Made by a program: the position numbers and the translations under genes. Below the pieces are notes generated by a model. It saw only the letters and a list, made by a program, of their open reading frames with translations, had not been told where the DNA came from and ran no database searches. From the NCBI GenBank assembly GCA_037042915.1, contig CM073195.1:806001-870000 (forward strand): a DNA stretch of 64,000 nucleotides. The letters run 5' to 3'. How positions within the stretch are numbered: position 1 is the first letter of the stretch; each line of letters opens with the position of its first letter. The stretch is from Auricularia sp. M13. Taxonomy: Eukaryota > Basidiomycota > Agaricomycetes > Auriculariales > Auriculariaceae. Below, piece by piece: positions 3,441 through 52,500 of this stretch.

Positions 3441-4169
3441 GAAGGGTAAGAGCAGACGGGCGGAGTAGGCCACTAGGGCGGCGATGGCGGCGGGAAGCAG
3501 CTTGGCGAGGGTGTGTAGTGGCGCGCGCCTTGAAGGGAAGCTATGCTTACATACAGCTTCCAGTTGCCCAGACGGTTGGCCGGGACCGGGCCAGGCATCG
3601 GACATGCACTGCGTAGAGCCGGTTGAATACGAGCGGCGAATGCCGTCCGTATTCCCTAAATACGGCTTGAATATGACCAACATACAGTCCGCATTTTCCC
3701 GTGTATATTCATCCCATATACTACAACTATGACAGGAATATGTGCGGAATATTCCCAGCTGCAATGACGTCGCATCACGCGCGCACGACGCGTACGCCCT
3801 CGCTGAATCCGAAGTCCGCCCACGTCCCTTGGCTCTGATCATTACCGCGTTGTCTGCCCGCTGTGCATGCAGCTCGGCTACGCCTAGCCTCACGCTCGCA
3901 GTCGCTGAGCCAGCCCAGATGCAGAGCCTCTCTTGCCATTGCCCGCGAGGCTGTCCAAGCGGCCGTCCTGCTTCTGCCCGTGCCACAGTCCTGGGTTACA
4001 CGCGCCCCAGGCGCGTTAATATCTCTCTAAACGCTGGGTTTTGCCCCTTGCATGCGCTAACGACGCCTCTAGGCATTCCCTTATACGTTGTTTCACCACG
4101 TCCATGCAAGCGCGCAGGTATGCATTAACAATTTTCACCGCTACTGAACATGCCTATAGGACCTTCTAG

Positions 4170-37972: not shown

Positions 37973-39185
37973 TTCCCTTCTCTCCCCTCCTCTTCCTCGG
38001 CGCTTTCTCGTCTTTTTATTCAAGTGGATTCCAGTATCATCCTCCATCTGTGTCCTTCTATATGCCCGCCGCGTCTTATATTTCCGGGCGGCCGCCAGCT
38101 GTTCTACTGCACGCTCACCTCGTCCTCCTCCGATCCCCCGCTGCCGCACTCGTCGATACCCTACCGGTTGAACTCGCGTCGTGCGTCCTCTTCCCACCTT
38201 CCCCTTCCACTCGTTCTGCTCTCCCACATTACAGTTACAGTATCTCGCTCCCATGGCTCAGTTTGCGTCTGCGATTCTGGTGCTCTCTACATTCGACAGT
38301 AAACATGTTTACACACACACGCCCTCGCTCAGCGCCGCGTCCCTGTTTGCTGCAATCTCTCGTGACCATACTACATGTCGATCATCATCAGCTCCTCCGT
38401 TGCTCTCCCTCTCGTTCTCTCCCTTTCTCTCCCGCTTCTCCGCACATTGGGTTCTCTTGCGCGACGCTGGCCTTGTGCGTGCTGTCGGCGTGTTGAAAGT
38501 ACTGCATGTCCATTGTCAATGCATCGAATATGAGGTTGGATTTCCGGATAATGACGCGGTTGCTTGTCGGCACCGCTTGGGATCTGGAACAGGGCCTCAC
38601 GATAATTAGATCTATCGCATAGATTGGGGTCATCGCAGCGCATGAGGCATGCAATGGGGGCGGCCTGCCTTCATTTTGCCACGCGAGCTGCGCGTGGAAT
38701 GCAAAAGCCATTCCTGGACGTTCGTGCAATCACTCAGCGCCATTTGCCTGTCATACCGAGACCCTGATCAGTTTCATGATGATCCACAGGACTTGTGCCT
38801 TTTCGAGCGGACCCGTCGACGTCAAATGCCAGCGTGGTTGGGGCTTCTAAAGCGCCCGGGTTCATGAATCTGACCCGACTCCCGAATAGGCGTGTGAAAA
38901 CGGTCCGTTGCCAACCTCCTCCTCAAGCGCAACGGCGCTGCGAGCCCCCAACCATCCGTGGGAATACCAGCCTTGGCAGCTCCTACCCGATTACTCGTAT
39001 CACGACTAAGTACAGATGTAGATGTCACCTCTAGAGCGGCGGATATATCTTATAAATGCAGCATCAAGAGCTGATACACCACCCATCATTCTTGTTCTCG
39101 GGTGCAGCGCACCTGGACTCCGCAAACTGCGCAGTCGTCAGTTCCTCTCTCTCACTGGTTTCTTTCGCCCGCCCCAGTCGCGCTC
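37973..39185. other. Intergenic, no supported gene
   Basis: 1.2 kb. The first half is strongly CT-rich (38100-38450). No recognisable gene. The last 140 bp hold the promoter of the wall-sensor-like gene. Confidence 0.5.
39050..39057 (+). promoter_or_regulatory. TATA box
   Basis: TATAAATG lies about 130 bp upstream of the ATG at 39186. Confidence 0.5.
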
Positions 39186-40687
39186 ATGCGCGCCCTTACG
39201 CTCGTTTGGCTGTGGCTCGCACTTTATGTCACGTCTAGTCTCGGGGAGGATGCCGTCTCGGTCGGCCATGACAACTGGGGGATGAAGGTCTATATCTCGA
39301 GCGCCCCGCGCGAGTGCGCGCCCTTCCACCTGTACTACGACATTAACCGGAACGGGGACCCGCCCAAGGACCTCGCGCTGCCTGACGATGCGGCGATCTC
39401 CTTCCTCACGCCTGACAGCGGCCTGAGCGAATGGATGGTGCGTGAGCGGTATCCCTCCCGCGGACTAACGTTGATAGCAGCGGCATAGGTCTTACGGCCG
39501 CCGATGGGCAAGGGCATGCTCAGTTGGACATGTACACTGCGCGCTGGCAAGCAGTTCGTCGTTAGAAACGGCAACGGCTATAAGCAGGTCTTCACCGTCG
39601 GCTCCGGGTCCGGCACGCAATGCGGACAGAACGCTCCGACCGTGACGACCTCGTCGTCGTACGGCTCGTTGAACGCGCAGGTGTACAAATCGCTCACCGC
39701 GAACAACTATGCGCCAACGAGCATCTCCCCAGCGAATCAGTTCTCGTGCGTTGCCAGGCTCGTCTTGTGTTTCAAATTGGCTTTCTCATCTCGCGCAGCG
39801 GTGTCAATATGCCTGGTACAGCGGGGCTGAGTGTTATCAATGTCCCGTTAGGCGCTGCAGTGTGAGTCTGGCCGCTCAGTTCTGCCTTCGTTGACTGACC
39901 TTTGCACTAGCCCGAGCAGTAAGCCAGACCCGCCTGTTTCTCAGAATCCGACGCCTGACCCGGACACTTCCTCTAAACCATCCTCTCCGCCCCCTGACAC
40001 GACAACCAAACAACCAGACTCCCCCTCGGACGAAACGCCAGGCAAAACCCCCAACGTCGTCCCGGACAATGGCAATGACGACACCACATCGGTCCCCCGG
40101 TCGACGAGCACTGCTGGAGCCGCTACGGACGAACCTTTCAACACTCGTACATCCGAACGTGGGCAGGCCACTGTAGATCCTGGAACGGTACCGAACGAGC
40201 CTGATTCTGAGGACGACGGTGACCATCCGAATTCAGCCCCGGTAGGAAGTGGAGGTGGTGGTTCAGCACAGGCGCCCACCGGCTCCAAGACCAACATCGG
40301 TGCTATCGTCGGAGGGGTTATCGCCGCCCTTGTCGTTGGCGGTCTCATTGGTGCACTATTCGTCTGCCTGGCCAGACGGAGAAGGCGCCAAAAGAGACTG
40401 ATCCAGGTGACACCGATGGACATGGCTCCAGCTGCTGAAGCCCCCTCAGTCGGTTAGTTAGTCATTTTCCCACTCGTACGCATTTGCTGAAGAGGATTCT
40501 AGCACCCACACAATACATGGACCGCAAGTATCCGATCCCCATCCCAACAGTCCCGACAGCAGGCTCGTCATCAGCCTCTGGCTACGAGACTTGGGACGGA
40601 TACGGTACTTCGGTCGGAACAATGGATATGCGACGACCTCTGTCAGACTTGTCAGAGGAGCCGCCGTCGTATTCCAGATTCGGGTAA
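39186..40687 (+). CDS. Secreted-ectodomain single-pass membrane protein (wall-sensor-like)
   Basis: Signal peptide MRALTLVWLWLALYVTSSLG, then an about 160-residue ectodomain with few cysteines (APRECAPFHLYYDIN, GMLSWTCTLRAG, GTQCGQN). A Ser/Thr/Pro-rich, mucin-like stalk follows, then one helix (IGAIVGGVIAALVVGGLIGALFVCL) with a strong stop-transfer ARRRRRQKR. The last exon supplies a cytosolic tail with EEPPSYSRFG, a PPxY motif that could recruit WW-domain ubiquitin ligases. Introns at about 39437-39487, 39748-39799, 39862-39910 and 40456-40495. This layout (signal, stalk, helix, short tail) is that of fungal stress sensors, but I recognise no named domain. Confidence 0.7.
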
Positions 40688-40931: not shown

Positions 40932-41219
40932 CTAGATGCATTTGTGGTTGACAGCGTCGCACCCACAGAATGTAGTCCCGTCGCTGCATGTGATGCAGAT
41001 GTCTGGGCAGGGAGGTCCAACCGTCTTGATCATGCAATGGTGCTCCCCGCTGCAGCCGCAAAGCCACTCTCCCCCAACGCATTCGATGCAGTAGGGCGGG
41101 CAGAGTTCAATCGGACCTCCAGGGTTTACAGCACCGAGTGAAGTGGTCGGGTAAGCGGCCGGGGAGGCGTAGACACGAGAGAGGAAGGTCACGACGACAG
41201 CGACCGATGTGATTTTCAT
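40932..41219 (-). CDS. Small secreted protein with two tandem six-cysteine modules (copy A)
   Basis: 95 residues, no intron. Signal peptide MKITSVAVVVTFLSRVYA, a short Pro/Gly-rich spacer, then two modules. Module 1 is CPPYCIECVGGEWLCGC with a sixth Cys after five residues; module 2 is CPDICITCSDGTTFCGC with a sixth Cys after six. The spacing is CX3CX2CX6CXCX5-6C, joined by MIKTVGPP. Twelve cysteines in about 56 residues imply a disulphide-knotted extracellular peptide. A paralogue with the same plan lies at 48422-48730 in the opposite orientation. Family not recognised. It could be an effector-like, antimicrobial or wall-associated peptide. Confidence 0.85.
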   Translation of the reverse strand: MKITSVAVVVTFLSRVYASPAAYPTTSLGAVNPGGPIELCPPYCIECVGGEWLCGCSGEHHCMIKTVGPPCPDICITCSDGTTFCGCDAVNHKCI

Positions 41220-41272
41220 GCTTGTTGGCTTGTCAACTTTGCTGAGGGATTCAGTTCATAAGAGCAGTCACT

Positions 41273-41279
41273 TTATAGT
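41273..41279 (-). promoter_or_regulatory. TATA box of secreted protein copy A
   Basis: TATAAAG on the minus strand lies about 54 bp upstream of the ATG at 41219. The paralogue has a TATA box at nearly the same distance, suggesting strong regulated expression of both. Confidence 0.6.
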
Positions 41280-42027
41280 CTGCCCACTAATGACCAGGGG
41301 AGACGCTGTAAGGCACACATTTCATCGCCTTGCGTCGTTTTCAGAACTTGGTAGCAAAGGTGAAACGTTGCCTCACCTGAGGGGGACCTGCGACCGGGAA
41401 ATGAATGATGACTCTGAGCCTCTGTCTCTCGCATCTTTAGCGTCCAATGCCAAACGCTGCCCAAGGGCTCCAAGATGACATGCCATGACTGTGGTAGTAG
41501 CCACCATTGAAACTACTACGATGTTCTTTGATAGGCCACAGAAACCTTGAAATGTTCTATTTTCCCGGAATTCGGGCGAGAGCCGACATACAAAACCTTT
41601 CGCAGTATACGAACGGAAGCGCCGGGCTGGGATCGATTGAGCTCGCATCTGGTGCGGTTTGCGGGCTCAAAGCGAGAACTCCAAGGAAGCACACAAAGTT
41701 GTTTGTGTAAACAACGATGTTTGTATAAGTGACGTACGCTCGTGATCAGACAGGCGCGCATGCAGCGCTCAATGCTCAGCCAGTCAGGCGCACAATGAGG
41801 AGGTTTGTCACATGGGGTACAACTCTCATAACAAGTCGCCGAGAAATGAATCACCTCAGATCTTGCAGGTTGTTTCCAGCGCTACCGACCGCAGCCCGTT
41901 CGCAGAGCGAGATGACAAACGTGCATCGGCGCGACGGCACTTCGCACGTCTGTAAGTTACGGATTTATCGACCCTAGAATACAATGCATCGCTGAATGTT
42001 CCTGCTTACATGCGTTCTCAGGCGGAA
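41280..42027. other. Intergenic, no supported gene
   Basis: About 750 bp between copy A and the carboxylase 3' end. Short overlapping frames only. Confidence 0.5.
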
Positions 42028-44258
42028 TTACATCCTGAAGACGCCGAAGTCGCCCTTCCTCCGGTCGGCGGTTGCACCTGCGGCGATACCAAGCCCCAAG
42101 CCGAGTACGTCGCGCGTATCGCGCGGCTGGATAATGCCGTCGTCCCACAGACGCGCGGTCGAGTACAGTGCTGTGGCCTGTGACTCGATCTCGTCCTTGA
42201 GCGTTGCATGCTGTGTCGGGTCCCTTCACGCGCCAGGTGTAAGCACGGATAGACCATGTGGCTGTTGGATGTGTACATACTTTGACACTGTGGTCATGAC
42301 TTGCGACAGCTGCCCGGAGCCCATAACACCGATTTTTGCATTCTGCGAGGCACATGGTCAGCGGCACAGGGACGCGTCTAGCTAGCAAACACCCTACCGG
42401 CCACATCCAGAGGAACCTCGGAGAGTACTGCGCACGTTGTATTGTTAAGGAAGAATATTAATTGGGACGGGGGGTCGGCTTACCGCTCGACCACACATGC
42501 CTGTGGGATCAGTCTGTCAGGTTTGAATCATGCGTAAAATGAGCATGACGAACCGTAGTTTCCAGCACCAAAGCTACCACCAACGACGACGGTAAACTTG
42601 GGCACATCGGCGCAAGCCACTGCCTAACCATCTTCGCGCCGTCCTTAGCGATGCCGCCACGTTCTGCCTTTGAGCCGACCATGTATCCTACAACGCAGTT
42701 ATTAGCAAACCGTGTCCGTCGCAAGGACTAGTATTGTACCTGTAACATTCACGAGGAACACGAGCGGTATTTGTCGTTGATTACACAGTTGGATAAAATG
42801 TGCTGCCTTCTGCGCGGATGTCGAGAAAAGAATACCGTTGTTGGCGACGATGCCGACAGGGTAGCCGTGGATGTGTGCAAAGCCAGTGACGAGCGTGGGC
42901 CCATACTCGGGTTTGAATTCGCGAAAGCGGCTGCCGTCCACAACGCGCGAAATGACGTCGCGCATGTCGAATGCCTGCCGCACGTCTGCGCCTACGATGC
43001 CGCCCAGCTCAGACGCATCGTATAACGGTTGTTCTGGCGCTTGGGGCGGCTGTTCCAAAGCGCAGGTTGGCGGTGTGCGGAGACCCTTGAAGGCAATCAA
43101 TGCTTACTGGTGCGACTCGAGAGCCTGCTGCGCCGAGGTCGGACACAGCTGCACGTGCGCGCGCGATACCTTCCGCGTCGCTGCCGACCAAGTGGTCCGT
43201 CACGCCACTCTCGCGAGAGTGCATGGCACCGCCGCCCAGCGTCTCTTCATCTATCTCTTCGCCTGTCGCGGCCTTGACAAGGGGTGGACCCGCCAGGAAG
43301 ATTCGACCCTGGTTCGCCACGATTATGCTCTCGTCCGAGAGAGCTGGCACGTATGCGCCGCCCGCTACGCTGATGCCATGCACGACTGCTATTTGTGGTA
43401 TACCGCATGCAGACATGTTTGCCTATGCTCGTGTTAGAGAATATAGGCAGAGGACATGCGATGCAGACGTACCATGTTGTAGAATATGCGTCCAAAGTGT
43501 TCCTTGTCCGGAAATACCTGAAGTTGGCGTGATCAGTCAAGAGGACAATGCCAGTTGCTTGCTACCTACATCTGCTTGGTGAGGCAGCGCCGCACCGCCG
43601 CTTTCCACTGAATATGCGTCAGTGCATCGTTAGCCAACTAGAACGTTGTACAGACCGAGGTATATGCATGGAAGTCCGTTTTCCCGCGCTATTTCTTGAG
43701 CCCGAAGTTGCTTCTTGACCTATGGACCTATGAGCTACACAGCGTGGTATGTCCAGCGCAAACTCACAGTCAGTGGATAGTATGCGCCGCCTTTAACGGT
43801 GGGATCGTTGACCAAGATGACGCATTCGCGACCAGAAACGCGCCCAATGCCAGTAATGAGCCCTGCAGCGGGTACTGCACCACCGTACATGTCGTGCGCT
43901 GCCAGAGAGCTCAGCTCGAGGAAAGCTGAACCTGGGTCTAGCAACGCGGCCAGTCTGACAGGGACTCGTTAGATGACCGCGGTCCGACAAGAGGTGCATA
44001 CCGTTCTCGAGGCAACATCTTGCCACGCGACTTCATGCGCTCCTGGGCCTTGGTGCCCCCGCCGGCGCGTGCGTTGGCTCTGAGAACCAGCAGCTCGGAC
44101 TCGAGCGCGGCCATTGCACGCGCTTTCTCGCTGAACTCAGGCGCCGCTGGCGAAACGAGGTTTGGTAGGACATCTGCGTGAAATGCGCGTCTGCATGGCC
44201 TGGGTAGCACTGGGCGACGGGTCCCTGCAAGCAGCTGGACACGTCGGGCAGCGAGCAT
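42028..44258 (-). CDS. MCC2: 3-methylcrotonyl-CoA carboxylase beta subunit, mitochondrial
   Basis: Carboxyltransferase subunit that carboxylates 3-methylcrotonyl-CoA in mitochondrial leucine breakdown. The N-terminus [27 protein letters not shown] is Arg-rich, as mitochondrial presequences are. Blocks in order: [190 protein letters not shown], and the tail [16 protein letters not shown]. At 42622-42624 one extra G/C is needed to join KMVR to [16 protein letters not shown]. At least nine short introns. Its biotin-carrying partner is not in the window. Confidence 0.92.
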
Positions 44259-44511
44259 GGTTGCTGGAGGTAGGGACGGAGCTTGAAGCGCGCGTGACCG
44301 CTTTGTTCATGACGTCCACCCGCCAGCGCTGGTATCAACAAATCTTGACTTGCTCAACGGCTATCGACAACCCCCGCCTGCTGGTCTTTGCTTCGGGTAG
44401 ATCTGCAGTTCTTTCTGGGTTTGGGCGACTTTTTATAAAGGCTACTTTCGACACTTCTGACAGCATTGGCTATTTGTTACATTGGCTGCATCGTAGTACA
44501 CCGCTCGCAGC

Positions 44512-46023
44512 TTACGCCGGAATGGGTTTCTCTGCCTGCGGGGTCAAGCGCGCAGCGTGCCTGATGTGCTTGTTCTCGAAGTCGGGGATCGCAGAGTGCG
44601 CAGTGACCCGGTTATCTATGCGCATTAGCACTTCTCGTATCTGGGATCGACTACGATTACTTACCCCAGACAACGACCGTTCCTGGTCTGTATGTGGCCC
44701 TCACCTGGAAGTCGGCGCCCTTGGCGATGTGGTCGAAGAGGAAGTTCAACAGATAATCGGATTCCTCTTTCCTGTACCCGACGATGTGCCTCACGAAGCC
44801 CTGGTTGATGTACAATGCCTTCTCGCCAGTGACCGGGTGCTCGCGCACAATCGGGTGCTGTGCGACGTGACATTAAATTTACGACTCAGGGCTGCTCGGA
44901 AACTGTGCGTTACCTCGGTCTCCACGGCCTCACGGCGCACAGGCCCGTTGCGCTTGGCAGAGAACTCAGCTTGCTTCACAGCGGAGTGCAGGGCGCGTAG
45001 GCCCGTCAGGCGCTTCTTGAACTCGTCCGACAGACGGTTGTAGGCTTCCACTTGGCTCACGAACAGCGTGTCGCCGCTTCCAGGAACGTCGGGTTGTTGC
45101 CTGCCCGTCGTAAGCGTATCGCCTTCTTTTTCTTGAGGAATGGAACTTACAGCATGAAGAATAGCGTCGTGCCCGGAGGCTGCTTCTCATACGACACGTC
45201 CGAGTGCCATCCCAGGTTGGAGACGCTGTTACCGCGCAGCTCCGAGAAACGGTCTTCGTTCGGGTCACGGTAGACAATGTGGAATTCCGGGTACTGCGGC
45301 AAACCAGGTCAATCTGGCTGTCAGTGTACGTCTGGAAATTCTGCTCACGTTCTTGACGTTGCCGGATGTCGGGTGCACTGGTCATCTCGATGAGAACTGC
45401 TGGTCGCATATATGCGTTCAGGCGTACATTGGATGGGCCCGAAATGCCTGAACGACGCTGCGTCAGCTCGGTTTCTACGCGCTTCCCTAGGCTATAGCTC
45501 ACTTCGCAAATTCGATCTGCTTCTCGACACCAATGTCCTTGAAGTCCTGATCCCTGAAAATGAGAACTTTGCGCTCCGCGGTGTAACAGCGCGAGCTCGT
45601 CGAGTCCTTCCTTGCTGAGTTGGCTGAGCTGGACTCCTGTGATCTCCGTGCCGAGGTATGGGCTGAGGTCTGTGGTCTTGGCGCCCTTCAGCAGGTTAGG
45701 CTTGGCCTTGTCGGCGCGAAGTCCCGGGTCGGTGTGCTCTGCAGGCGACACACGTCGGTGACAGATCCTAGGCTGTATAACAGGTTTTACAAACCGAAGT
45801 ATGGTGTCGGCGGGAACTTCTCGTCGTTGTTGAAGACGGGATAGTATAGCGGGTAGGCAACACCCTTCGGAACATTGTCTGGGACTTCAGCTTTGCGCTC
45901 TTTCTACAACTCATCATCAATCATGCAGTCCACTTCTGATATATCTGCAGCGCTGACCTGTCCGAGCCTGAGCGAATAGACCTGCTCGGTGATTGCCTGG
46001 ACTGTGGTAGTGGTAGTAGCCAT
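44512..46023 (-). CDS. TauD/TfdA-family alpha-ketoglutarate dioxygenase (sulfonate dioxygenase-like)
   Basis: Non-haem iron oxygenase that couples 2-oxoglutarate decarboxylation to substrate hydroxylation. The fungal relatives (Jlp1-like) release sulfite from sulfonates. The N-terminal exons join MATTTTTVQAITEQVYSLRLGQ to KERKAEVPDNVPKGVAYPLYYP and PPTPYF to EHTDPGLRADK. Core: DLSPYLGTEITGVQLSQL, KVLIFRDQDF, HFGPI, YPEFHIVYRDPN and WHSDVSYEKQPPGTTLFFML (iron-binding H and D). Then VTGEKALYINQGFVRHIVGY and VVVWDNRVTAHSAI (distal iron His) with RHAARLTP supplying the 2-oxoglutarate Arg. Near 45583 the reading frame shifts by +1 (CTGTTACACC) between DELAL and TAERKVLIF, so one inserted or two missing bases must be assumed. 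The region around 45310-45450 reads as intron. Confidence 0.82.
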
Positions 46024-46063
46024 TCCGACCGTCGTGCCGTCTCAGTCGCCACCCATATCCCGA

Positions 46064-46071
46064 TGTATATA
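46064..46071 (-). promoter_or_regulatory. TATA-like box of the dioxygenase gene
   Basis: TATATACA on the minus strand, about 41-48 bp upstream of the ATG at 46023. Confidence 0.45.
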
Positions 46072-46581
46072 CCCTGGCAAGCCGCTCCAGTTATGCGATC
46101 TGCGCACATAATGGGGCAGTCTTGCGTGCTCGCCACTATTGATAAGCCTGGGAAGCCTTCGCTCAGTCGCGGGTCTTATCGAGGTTGCGTGCCCGCGGCT
46201 GTTATCGCGACGGCCCGGGGAGCCGGCGGCGACTCGTGTGAGGCTTCCACAGGAGGACTAATAATTCAGGTCCACCAATGTGATAATAGGTGAATCTGTT
46301 CACGAAATATGCGCACCAAATCATCGTAAAGCGTGCTCCGAGGAAAGTCACGTGATCATAGCACGTCGGAGTTGCAATCGTGATCTCAGCTGTATACATA
46401 GTAGGCGTTCTTCCCGGCCACTCGCGGTTATTTTAGCTTTTGCTTTTTCTCTGAATCTGCATAGAGGCCAAATTTGTTTGCTCACTGTTATCAATGTCGC
46501 AATGGTGTCTCTGTTGATACTACGAGCAAATGATGAGTCCGTTCCAATGTCTCAGCAGTGAGAGCTTAGTCGTCGTCGGGA

Positions 46582-47229
46582 TCATCCAAACTCGGAGGTC
46601 CTGGATTTTAGAATGACAGTATCAATGGCAAATACGAGGGTGTCGCTAACGACTTTGAGGGTATGCGCTTCAATAGGATGGTTTGTGAACTGAAGGCTTT
46701 CTGCGAATTCGTCAGTTGCCAATGCTCTCCGAAACGAAAGGGTTCAAAGAGATATTCTGACCATATTATATAAAGTATTGTTGCTTGCCTTATCTAGGCT
46801 GTACGTGAGAAGGAGCTGGTCGTCCAAGTAGAACTTGAGGCTGCCGCCGAGTCTCGGCGGCAAGACAAGCTAGACCGCGATACCGTTGCCGGAGAACTTG
46901 GACTCAACATTTCCACCCTGGAAGATACAATATCGTCGGTGTCTATGCTCCCCGAAGCGATGGCTAGCTTCATACCGCAGGGAGAATGGTGTATCCGTCA
47001 AACCAAGCGTTGCCACTGTTGTCGTCGAAGCGGTTAGCACCCGCAGAGTAAGTCCAGCCCGGGTCTTCAGTGGTATGAGGACGGCCTGCCCTGAACCTGA
47101 GTGCGGGTTCTGCCTACCGACGTCGTCGAGTATCTAGCGGGACTGGCTCTACGGAGGCTGGGACTGTGCCACCGCGACGCCAAATGCAGCTGTAGTGATT
47201 GCGAGAAGACGGGACAAGCGCATCTTCAT
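46582..47229 (-). pseudogene. Dead secreted beta-sandwich-type protein gene
   Basis: Starts with a good signal peptide (MKMRLSRLLAITTAAFGVAVA). Downstream pieces read ILDDVGRQ, EDPGWTYSAG, FSGNGIAV*LVLPPRLGGSLKFYLDDQLLLTYSLD and LQFTNHPIEAHTLKVVSDTLVFAIDTVIL, the pattern of the very common Agaricomycete secreted/membrane proteins with a beta-sandwich ectodomain. TAG stops interrupt it twice just after the signal peptide and again at 46870-46872, where relatives have an aromatic residue. Splice signals persist (GTATGAAG...CCAG). It is therefore a recently inactivated gene. Confidence 0.7.
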
Positions 47230-48361
47230 CGAAATATAGCGGTAGAGACAAATACAGGGACTCTCGCAGGCGTTTCAGGGTATCTCAGACCGATCTATGA
47301 CTCACATAATGATTAAAATATCACGATACAGGCGTCCTCGAGCTGCAAAGCAGAACTCGATTTCCACGCCGCCGAATGCCAAGCTTGTGAATAAGCCGAA
47401 CCGCTGAATCGCGTCAGACGTCCGTGCTTCGGGGCTCAGACCGACTGGTCGACTAGAATCGGGGGTCAAATTCGGGCGCTCAGGATCCGGCGCGAGCGTT
47501 CAAAGCACTTGCTGAAACCGCGCCCATACAGTTCATTCGATATTAGGCTGGGCACGTCAACTTCATGGAGCCGCGCGCCAGGCACCCGACAAAACGCAAA
47601 TGGCAAATATAGCGGGCTCGGAGCGCCCTGGCAAGTCAGTGCAGCTTGGGAAGATGATGGTCATCTTTCGCGCTCAGGATTCGCATGGCACGTCACGAAT
47701 CCTGTGCTAGGAATTCTGTGTTCGAGAGTAGCTCCCCGGCTCCCCGTGGATCCCGAGCCTCGAGGGCTGGTAGAGAGTCTGCCATGGAATGTGAAACAAA
47801 CTGCAACGAGACGACAGCTGGCGGGACTTGAAGGCTAGGATCATGTGCCCAGTAGTATCCCACAGATGACGTTGTTTGTTGTCCAAAGATGTTAGAGTGG
47901 AGGAGCTTGGAGTCAAAGTAAACTGTCGCAGAGCACCGAGCGACAAGACAAGCGCCTTCCGCCCCCGTCACGGTGATCACCGGAGAATATACCCAGAGGG
48001 TGAACGTGCGTATCCCCGGTTATTCGCCCACGTGCATCCTGCTCAGGCATTAAACGGCCTTAGGGAAACTGTGCCTAGCTCCGGGAACGCATCTTGCGGC
48101 ATGCTGTCAGTGCCAGAGAAGCGACGTGAAATTTTTTCGCACACCACGAAATGGTCTGACACGCTCTAGTGCATGGCCAGGGTCGGAAATGTCAAGAGAA
48201 AAATGGGCCGTCTGAGCGATAGTTTTTCGCAGGCGAAGTAGTTTGGTGCCAGTAAAAGCCGACAAGGCGCTGCAAGCCAAGTGTCCCAGCTACCGCCCAA
48301 AGGTGTCAAACTCCAGCATCTGCAAATGTATATTCCGAGTCCTTGAGTCAATCTGCAGGCC
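47230..48361. other. Intergenic, no supported gene
   Basis: 1.1 kb with short frames on both strands. The longest, 95 codons on the minus strand at 47693-47980, has no recognisable motif. Confidence 0.5.
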
Positions 48362-48369
48362 TATAAAAG
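48362..48369 (+). promoter_or_regulatory. TATA box of secreted protein copy B
   Basis: TATAAAAG lies 60 bp upstream of the ATG at 48422, closely matching the arrangement of copy A. Confidence 0.65.
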
Positions 48370-48421
48370 CGTGCAAGTCGGGCCTGAAGTTTCTTCGCTT
48401 CCTGCAAGGCAGCTAACCATC

Positions 48422-48730
48422 ATGCGCTTTGCCTTCGTCGCCATCGCCCTCACCTCATTCCTCCTTGGAGCGGCCGCCTCGCCAGTCTCAGAGGCGGCAG
48501 CCACAACGACGCTTCACTTCGGCCCCGGGCCTGCGAAGCCACCTGGCGGGGTGTGCCCTGCCTGGTGCCTCGAGTGCGAGAACGGAAACGAGATCTGCGG
48601 CTGCGAGCTGAACTATGCGCGCTGTATTCCCAAGAAGGTGGGGCCCATATGCATCCAGATCTGCATCACCTGCAAGGACGGCACGAGCTTCTGCGGGTGC
48701 GACGCAGAGAACCACAGGTGCATCGACTAG
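48422..48730 (+). CDS. Small secreted protein with two tandem six-cysteine modules (copy B)
   Basis: 102 residues, no intron. Signal peptide MRFAFVAIALTSFLLGAAA followed by SPVSEAAATT and a Pro/Gly spacer. Module 1 CPAWCLECENGNEICGC and module 2 CIQICITCKDGTSFCGC each end with a sixth Cys after six residues (CX3CX2CX6CXCX6C). The linker has KKVGPI where copy A has IKTVGPP. Module 2 is the better conserved between the paralogues (CITCxDGTxFCGCDAxNHxC). The pre-cysteine region is free to vary. No named family recognised. Confidence 0.87.
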   Translation: MRFAFVAIALTSFLLGAAASPVSEAAATTTLHFGPGPAKPPGGVCPAWCLECENGNEICGCELNYARCIPKKVGPICIQICITCKDGTSFCGCDAENHRCID

Positions 48731-49537: not shown

Positions 49538-52500
49538 ATGTCCGTACGACGCGCCTCAACGTCTGCTGCGGCTCTCATGCCACCGCTCGAACTACCTTCA
49601 CCAGCCAACACCGTCCTGCCCTCGTACGAGGACCAGGCTCCGCCGGACTACCGCTCCGTACCCGTGTCTGTCCAGGATGGTAAGAAGTCCGGGGTGCAGC
49701 GCGATGGCTTGCTCGCTGCTTAAAGTGCATTTGCGCAGTCAGCGAGTTCGTGCGATACCACTTCCCTGTCGGCGCCCACGAGGAGATCGAGCTCAAAACC
49801 TTCGCTGGTACCTGCGAAACTCGAGCTGGAGTCGGCTAGAGGCCAGTGCAACGCCGTTGCAGGGGCCGGACTTTGAGTGCGGTGGCGCGAAATGGTCAGT
49901 GTACCGCACTTCCTTCGTACCAGGATAAAGGCCAAGGCTCATAATACGGCCAACAGGAAGATACTGGCATACCCGGGCGGCGTGCGAGGGGCTCCAGGCA
50001 ACGTTTCGCTGTTTCTCGTCTGGAATCGGCCGCCAGACAAGAAGGCCTACACGTGCGCCCAGTTCGCGTTCGTCATGTGCAATCCCTCCGACCCAACCGT
50101 CTTTGAGACCCAGAGTGCGTGCTCCTGTGCTGCTCGGCATCATTGCGCTCATCTCGAAGACCGGTATGCGCAGTGGCTGAGCACCGATTCACGCACAGTC
50201 AACCGCAATGGGGCTTCGCGCGCTACGTCTCTAACGACGCGCTCCGTGCGACCAACGACCACCGCCCGAAGCCCATCCTGCAGGACGACACTCTCGATAT
50301 CATCGTCTTTGTCCGCGTCCTCCGCGATCCCACTGGGGTGCTAATGCACGACTTCCGAGAGTATGTTCCCGCGGCACAGCGTTTCGTGGCATCGGATAGC
50401 CTCCTGACAAATGCCATACAGTTACGACTCCAAAGCCGTCACGGGTTACGTTCCTCTGGTGAACCAAGGAGCTACCGACTACCTCAACTCGGTGCTGTGC
50501 ACCCTGTTCATGATACCAGCCTATAGAAAGGTGCACCTTAGTTGCGTCCGTCTTCTGTTCACCATTCTAACTACGGGAAGCTCGTGTACAACATACCAAC
50601 GCAAGGAGCATCGCCCACCGAAAGCACTGCATATGCGCTGCAACGGCTCTTTTACCGCATGCAGTCGACAACCGGCAGCGTTAGTAAGTCTGTCTGGAGA
50701 GCGGCCACTACAACATACGAGCTAACTGCATACAAAGCCACAACTGAACTCACAAAAACGTTCGGCTGGCGTGCTATCGACGCCTTTACGCCGCGTGACG
50801 TGTTTGACTTCATCCGCATGCTCCAAGAACGGATAGAGCAGGAATGCAAAGTGTGTAATCTCTTCAAGTTTCTCCCTCCCAGCCCCGTCTCTCCCTTTAC
50901 CTCTTGAAAACGATGGCCTTGTTGCTGATGGCGGTGCCGACCAGAATACCGCGGCTGAAGGCCAGATCGAACGTCTATTCTTCGTTCGATGCGAAACAAC
51001 TCGTGAGTGCGCACACGCGCCGCACGAGCACCGCAGCATCACATCGACCAAGCACGCGTTCCTCAAGCTCGCCGTTGTTGGCATGGACACGATCTACGGC
51101 GCGCTGCGCGAACTCGCATACCCGCACACCGCGCCGTGTCCGCTATGCCCGCCCACACTCCCCGCGCGCGACAACGTGGCGACCTCGCGCACGCGCATCA
51201 CCAGCCTGCCGCCCATTCTGACTCTCATGCTCGACCGCTTCCTGCCTGACGCCACACCTAACGTGATCGGCAGCACGCGCGGCCGCCAACGACGACCGGA
51301 GCTCATGACGTACCCGCCGACGCTCGACATGGGCGAATTCGTCGAGTCGGACGAGTCGTGGACATACAACCTCGCAGGCATAATTGTCCATGAGGCTGTC
51401 GTGACCGATCGCGGGTACCACTACGCCATGCTGCGTTCCGGCAGCAAGTGGTTTAAGTTCGACGACGAGCGTGTCATACCAGCTCTAGAGCGCGACGCGC
51501 TCGAGGCATTCGTGGGCGACAAAGCAGCAGTCGCATACGGTCTTGTGTACGTGCGTGCGAATGAAGAAGCGCGGCTATATGGCCCTGTGGTAGACCTGGA
51601 CGTCCCTCTACATATACGTACGCCGGTCGCTTCATCCCAAGAGGGCGGCTCATCAGAGTTACAGGAGAGCACATTGACGTCGTACCGCCTCCTACCGCTA
51701 TACCAGCATCTGTGCGTTCCGCAGGAGTGAAGACACCGGATCGGCAAATATACGACGTCTCCGTACGGGTACGATAGATTCCAGAGTATTTTTGCTGGTC
51801 GTCGGCTGAAGCGGACACAGCTGATCAACGACGACATTTTCCGGAAGCACCAGGGCTTCGACCTCGCTGCACTCGACAACCTAGACATTCCGCGCGTCAC
51901 AGCTCGATGGGACGAGCGTCTTTCTGATGTCAGGTCGCGATTGCCGCGTGAGGTGTGGAAAGCAAAGACACCGCAGGGCACTCGACTGCGGGTCGTCATC
52001 CAGAGGCAAAACAAGACTTGCCGACCTGCTTGGGCGTTGTCCAAAGCTGACGAAAACATGAGTGAGTGCACCATTATATTGTTCGATAAAATAACTCATC
52101 GTACCCCAGCTCTACAGCAGATTAAGGACAAATGGGGCTCGGCGCGCGAGAAGTCGCTCGTCTTCTACGTTGAGCAGATTACTCCTGCTACTGTGGTGCG
52201 TCCGATGTTTGCAAAATCTTCTGGGGTGCACTGACAGCTTGATAGACCATAGACCCAGCGAAAAGCTTGATTTTCTTGAAGTACTTCGATTATCGAGCGC
52301 AAACGCTCTTGGGCTACGCTGCTGTCTACGTCGTGCGCACTGATCCATTACGATCGCTCAATCGTGTGCTCTGTGAACTGCGTGGTTGGCCGTACAAGAC
52401 CTCCGTCCTTGCCTATTATGAGGTTTGCCTTGCCCGCTACTCCCCAATCGATGCCGGTTGACACAGTCCGCGAATAGGAGATACAGCCCATAATGGTCGA

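Follow-up and report, generated by a model that had tools for sequence, protein, structure and literature searches.

A conserved family of probably secreted twelve-cysteine proteins with two tandem six-cysteine modules in Auricularia sp. M13

Organisation of the genes A40 and B48

The genome of Auricularia sp. M13 carries two small genes, here termed A40 and B48, in a stretch of 64,000 nucleotides (contig CM073195.1, positions 806,001 to 870,000) that was analysed as a whole and is referred to as the window. A40 (40932..41219, minus strand) and B48 (48422..48730, plus strand) are intronless open reading frames of 95 and 102 amino acids, respectively, both uninterrupted from ATG to stop. They are divergently oriented with 7202 bp between their start codons, so that the coordinates, lengths and outward transcription at 7.2 kb distance given in the original prediction, which had been made from the sequence without database searches, were reproduced. 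Both proteins start with a hydrophobic, signal-peptide-like N terminus ending at an A-S-P step (as judged by eye), in agreement with the signal peptides proposed earlier, and an N-terminal arm of 21 residues in A40 and 25 in B48 leads from there to the first cysteine. They share 52% identity over residues 5-95 according to the genome search.

The twelve cysteines of each protein are arranged in two modules. In A40 module 1 (41034..41102, minus strand) has the spacing CX3CX2CX6CXCX5C and module 2 (40938..41009, minus strand) the spacing CX3CX2CX6CXCX6C, while in B48 both module 1 (48554..48625, plus strand) and module 2 (48650..48721, plus strand) follow CX3CX2CX6CXCX6C. An eight-residue linker containing VGP connects the modules in both proteins, resulting in the overall spacings 3,2,6,1,5 - 8 - 3,2,6,1,6 for A40 and 3,2,6,1,6 - 8 - 3,2,6,1,6 for B48; the twin-module plan and its linker were confirmed in this way from the residue spacing. 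A TATAAA hexamer, identified by its motif only, lies upstream of each gene, at -60 from the ATG in B48 (48362..48367, plus strand), as predicted, and at -58 instead of the predicted -54 in A40 (41272..41277, minus strand).

Fungal small secreted proteins are defined as proteins of less than 300 amino acids with a signal peptide, and they are reported to account for 40-60% of fungal secretomes, many being encoded by orphan genes (PMC7105643). By their length and their signal peptide as judged by eye A40 and B48 belong to this class, which is a class and not a family.

Homologues and searches against known families

Searches of the protein database retrieved a homologue of B48, the hypothetical protein AURDEDRAFT_116605 of Auricularia subglabra (P0001), with 79% identity over the whole length, and two further homologues with 78% (P0002) and 60% identity (P0003) that are encoded on two other contigs. 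All three possess 12 of 12 cysteines in the spacing of B48. A profile search of the same database gave three of 4351 candidates at E ≤ 10, and a search with A40 alone produced one candidate and no scored match; the protein database search depends on shared exact words.

No known family was matched in Pfam, NCBIfam or the PDB, which is consistent with the initial description of the proteins as a new-looking family. Pfam contained no match for P0001-P0003 and the two additional proteins C8a and C8b described below up to E 10, nor for A40 and B48 up to E 5, and NCBIfam gave nothing for A40, B48, P0001 and P0002. The sequence search against the PDB was empty for B48 (up to E 10) and for C8a. A profile built from 14 modules yielded only two ten-residue matches in the PDB, both within a single aminotransferase (E 1.2), which were taken as chance. 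Scans of viral and prokaryote contigs detected 6 and 3 pattern stretches, respectively, and no relative. The open-licence literature, covered mostly at the level of listings, gave no description of a twin-module family and no mention of AURDEDRAFT_116605. So far, the family has been seen only in the genome of Auricularia sp. M13, in Auricularia subglabra and on the two other contigs.

Two further genes on contig C8

When B48 was searched against its own genome (G000; 52.1 Mb, 14 contigs), only A40 and B48 themselves were found at E ≤ 0.001. Weak matches were obtained on contig C8 near 560.7-562.0 kb, the best being E 0.0038 with A40, E 1.8e-4 with P0003 and E 0.0046 with a module peptide. At this locus (L019, G000:C8:558500-564500) two tandem intron-containing genes, C8a and C8b, start at positions 3550 and 2486 on the minus strand. 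Reading GT-AG splice sites from the sequence gives proteins of 82 and 83 amino acids, respectively, each with twelve cysteines and both ending in KGCPA-stop. The predicted splicing is, in our reading, supported by the agreement between both genes and by the recovery of twelve cysteines.

Each protein consists of a signal-peptide-like start, four residues and the two modules, of which the first reads CX3CX2CX6CXCX4C and the second, separated from it by 13 or 14 linker residues, CX3CX2CX6CXCX5C; the mature start is assumed at the same A-S/T-P step as in the window genes. Two introns were predicted per gene, of 48 and 56 nt in one gene and of 65 and 62 nt in the other. Their phases are 2 and 1 in both genes, and each intron sits one or two nucleotides ahead of the codon for the sixth cysteine of its module. 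A KR dibasic pair was noticed between the modules of C8b (L019:2275-2280, minus strand), with QR at the same place in C8a.

In the back-search of the genome C8a found A40 (E 1.5e-6) and B48 (E 9.7e-5). C8b as a whole matched A40 and B48 weakly (E 0.03 to 1.2) and did not set them apart from two hydrophobin-like matches (0.28). Of the eight modules present in the genome, a module peptide of C8b recovered seven (E 9e-14 to 0.042), and there were no other matches up to E 10. The earlier statement that there are two genes holds for A40 and B48, but the count is too low by the two intron-containing members on contig C8. Searches of the genome with the window proteins, the homologue P0003, the C8 proteins and module peptides revealed no convincing fifth gene, and the four genes are a lower bound since the genome search is a heuristic that does not see across introns. 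The proteins represent a conserved, unnamed family of an ordinary class, the small secreted proteins, that is larger than first noticed.

Several other candidates were rejected. The two matches on contig C4 (E 0.28-0.29) cover residues 1-47, mostly the signal peptide, and belong to frames with CC pairs that appear hydrophobin-like by eye. Those on contigs C12 (E 0.14), C9 (E 0.14) and C2 (E 0.79) are without a six-cysteine module on the correct strand. The two hydrophobin-like frames on C4 (L032 and L033; G000:C4 near 3,365,000 and 3,359,400) are very similar to each other and separated by about 5.6 kb.

Conservation of the module

Within the six reading frames of the window the single-module pattern (last loop of 4-6 residues) occurs four times, in each case within A40 or B48. 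With uniform codons the expected number in the 52 Mb genome is 0.29 for the single module and 6e-9 for the double module, and a chance origin of the spacing was rejected. All twelve cysteines are retained in seven of seven proteins (A40, B48, P0001-P0003, C8a and C8b), so that random cysteine loss among relatives, named in advance as an observation that would speak against the family, is rejected. The module of 22-24 residues can be summarised as C-x3-C-x2-C-x2-G-x3-C-x-C-x4-6-C, two of which in tandem form a core of 56-61 residues with 12 cysteines. Apart from the six cysteines, the glycine between the third and the fourth cysteine (C3 and C4) is invariant in 14 of 14 modules, position 6 is always I, L or V, and positions 9, 12 and 13 are variable. 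Taken together, A40, B48 and their relatives almost certainly constitute a real family of secreted proteins.

The high density of cysteines in this core and the presence of CXC motifs could also be expected from a metallothionein-like protein that binds metals via CXC, CX2C and CX3C thiolates. Yet the signal-peptide-like start, the aromatic residues and the strictly ordered, even number of cysteines point to an oxidising environment in which disulphides would form, and Pfam gave no match. A function as metal binder seems very improbable. The proteins very probably form a two-module scaffold locked by disulphides.

Duplication and selection

The similarity between the two modules of one protein exceeds that imposed by the cysteines. 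Using BLOSUM62 scores over the non-cysteine positions and 20,000 shuffles, modules 1 and 2 were more alike than shuffled sequences in A40 (p 0.0006) and B48 (p 0.0033), as required by the internal duplication that had been postulated for these genes, and likewise in C8a and C8b (p ≤0.00005 each), P0003 (p 0.0046), P0002 (p 0.012) and P0001 (p 0.026). Plain identity, the weaker test, resulted in p values of 0.00065 for A40, 0.059 for B48, 0.138 for P0001 and 0.089 for P0002. The matched places of the C8 introns would fit an internal duplication as well, though their phases differ by one.

A duplication of the whole gene, as suggested previously, is supported as well, and the C8 pair adds a second locus. 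The simplest history would comprise one internal duplication, the spread to two loci and a further duplication at each of them. The module identities between the clades fit a pairing of module 1 with either module 1 or module 2 of the other clade (5.3+5.1 versus 4.6+5.8), and would thus be compatible with either order of the internal duplication and the split of the loci. The last loops of the modules comprise 5-6 residues in the intronless window genes versus 4-5 in the C8 genes, being longer exactly at the sites of the C8 introns. Possible explanations for the intron difference are a loss via a cDNA copy, an imprecise loss or a gain in the C8 genes.

By the simple Nei-Gojobori method, with dS near saturation, A40 and B48 differ by dN 0.46 and dS 1.50 (dN/dS about 0.31), and C8a and C8b by dN 0.18 and dS 1.76 (dN/dS about 0.10). 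These values indicate that purifying selection acts on both gene pairs.

Comparison with known cysteine-rich proteins

The module resembles knottins and cyclotides in its six cysteines, the three-residue first loop, the six-residue third loop, the CXC motif and the short last loop, and we take its spacing to be close to that of cyclotides. The loops of the seven proteins are 3,2,6,1,4-6, and the two-residue second loop presumably falls below the range known from knottins. Knottins are defined by the disulphides C1-C4, C2-C5 and C3-C6, the third threading the other two (PMC6024828). Among fungi, the knottin MLP124266 is known from the poplar rust (PMC6889267), and knottins have been predicted in Venturia (PMC9632046). 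In contrast to the two residues found here, the second loop of MLP124266 has five residues according to its description (Cys44 to Cys50; PMC6889267), and the module occurs in tandem in the present proteins.

Other families can be distinguished by simple features. Hydrophobins have eight cysteines including two CC pairs, whereas the seven proteins have twelve cysteines and no CC pair. Repeat proteins processed by Kex2 carry dibasic KR or RR sites between their repeats; of the seven proteins only C8b contains KR, B48 contains KK and the other five are without any dibasic pair.

Copsin of Coprinopsis cinerea, a defensin of the CS-alpha-beta type, is described as a defence protein that has 57 residues and six disulphides and binds to lipid II (PMC6272156). 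Being a secreted mushroom protein it is similar to the present proteins, and its size and number of cysteines equal those of their core (PMC6272156). Together with the signal-peptide-like start this likeness could argue for a defensin- or copsin-type antimicrobial peptide that kills bacteria or fungi, in line with the antimicrobial role suggested by the original prediction. However, copsin is described as a single CS-alpha-beta fold (PMC6272156), whereas the present proteins repeat one unit twice. Neither Pfam, for all seven proteins, nor the PDB, for B48 (up to E 10) and C8a, gave a sequence or profile match to this defensin type. Moreover, the mature net charge is -2 to -5 in all five proteins of the window clade (A40, B48 and P0001-P0003), which is unlike cationic antimicrobial peptides and speaks against membrane-lytic peptides; C8b has -1 and only C8a is positive (+2). 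The analysis gave no direct support for the effector-like or the antimicrobial role raised by the original prediction, and we consider the latter unlikely.

A further protein of mushrooms with comparable features is cylindracin of Cyclocybe, described as a cysteine-rich antifungal protein at the surface of the cap (PMC11532979). Cylindracin/Pri3 shares with A40 a length of 95 amino acids, a signal peptide and a short N-terminal stretch ahead of a C-terminal cysteine-rich domain (residues 37-95 in its published description), but has eight cysteines and a basic domain (PMC11532979) instead of twelve cysteines in two repeats and the acidic core of the window clade. None of knottins, copsin and cylindracin is a demonstrated relative.

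The proteins could also be structural or signalling components of the fruit-body or hyphal surface, that is small secreted proteins of the wall or matrix. Between 20 and 61% of the small secreted proteins of mushroom-forming fungi are reported to be developmentally regulated, and Ssp1 of Pleurotus to influence fruiting (PMC7105643). The N-terminal arm of the window clade, which contains Pro and Gly and is 19-25 residues long, would be compatible with such a role. In contrast, only four residues precede the first cysteine in the C8 members, and the Pfam scans revealed no wall-binding domain. A surface function appears rather improbable.

Predicted fold and possible function

Structure prediction, which had been proposed as a check, was carried out with AlphaFold and gave no reliable fold (pLDDT 43.8 for the full length and 63.5 for the core). 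The best model of the 60-residue core, itself of low confidence, contains a strand, a turn and a strand in both modules, and fold searches with the predicted models returned no significant match. It is conceivable, though improbable, that the module represents a new minimal disulphide fold, namely a cystine knot compressed to a two-residue second loop, which wood-ear-like fungi would use in tandem as a natural double-headed knot and in which the intron-bearing genes have an intron at the same spot of each repeat. If the two halves fold as independent mini-domains, they would provide a compact, genetically encoded two-headed scaffold.

We tentatively favour the reading that the whole is a two-headed extracellular scaffold, locked by disulphides and serving in binding or defence, a plausible reading that falls a little short of being probable. 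Each module would close on its own as a unit of three disulphides on a beta-hairpin, with one strand running through C2 and C3, a turn at the invariant glycine and the second strand passing through C4-x-C5. At the tips of both hairpins the variable residues would then form two faces for binding, on an extracellular protein that resists proteases and has no enzymatic activity. The target may be located outside the cell and belong either to a competitor or predator or to the wall or matrix of the fungus itself, and the second module would permit a two-headed contact. Binding in the specific context of defence or competition, which we infer only, is possible and somewhat less secure.

Bowman-Birk inhibitors contain an internally duplicated, cysteine-bounded hairpin. 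In an analogous double-headed protease inhibitor the hairpin loop C3-x6-C4 of each module might be offered to a protease of a competitor, a predator or the fungus itself. The internal duplication, the small core and the one short cysteine-bounded loop with a variable tip per module would suit this function. However, a constant P1-like residue is missing from the tip, where a glycine is invariant instead, and neither Pfam nor the PDB gave a sequence match to inhibitors. Protease inhibition is doubtful and would rank below the antimicrobial and surface roles.

The proteins are a clear case of an orphan family of the mushroom secretome, in which a module was probably duplicated first inside one gene and later between two loci, and which has both intron-bearing and intronless copies. 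Should the modules not fold as independent mini-domains, the proteins would represent one lineage-restricted family of small secreted proteins among many. Secreted proteins encoded by orphan genes are widespread in fungi.

Neighbouring genes

The genes around A40 and B48 give no help on their function. Downstream of A40, open stretches on the plus strand (39075-40454) appear by eye to encode a protein with a stalk rich in Ser and Pro that is either secreted or spans the membrane once; Pfam gave no match above the cut-off for it. Between both genes, pieces of a carboxyl transferase domain (42705-43422, minus strand; Pfam E 1.9e-36 and 3.2e-26) belong perhaps to a multi-exon acyl-CoA carboxylase beta subunit, and an exon of a TauD/TfdA-type dioxygenase was detected at 44794-45186 (minus strand; Pfam E 7.7e-7). 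The C8 pair is flanked by a piece of an APP1-type phosphatidate phosphatase (L019:630-1313, plus strand; Pfam E 2.8e-12) and by a weak cupin match below the cut-off (L019:5048-5524, minus strand). In the window, B48 is followed by a piece of a ubiquitin carboxyl-terminal hydrolase (50837-51499, plus strand; Pfam E 1.9e-14).
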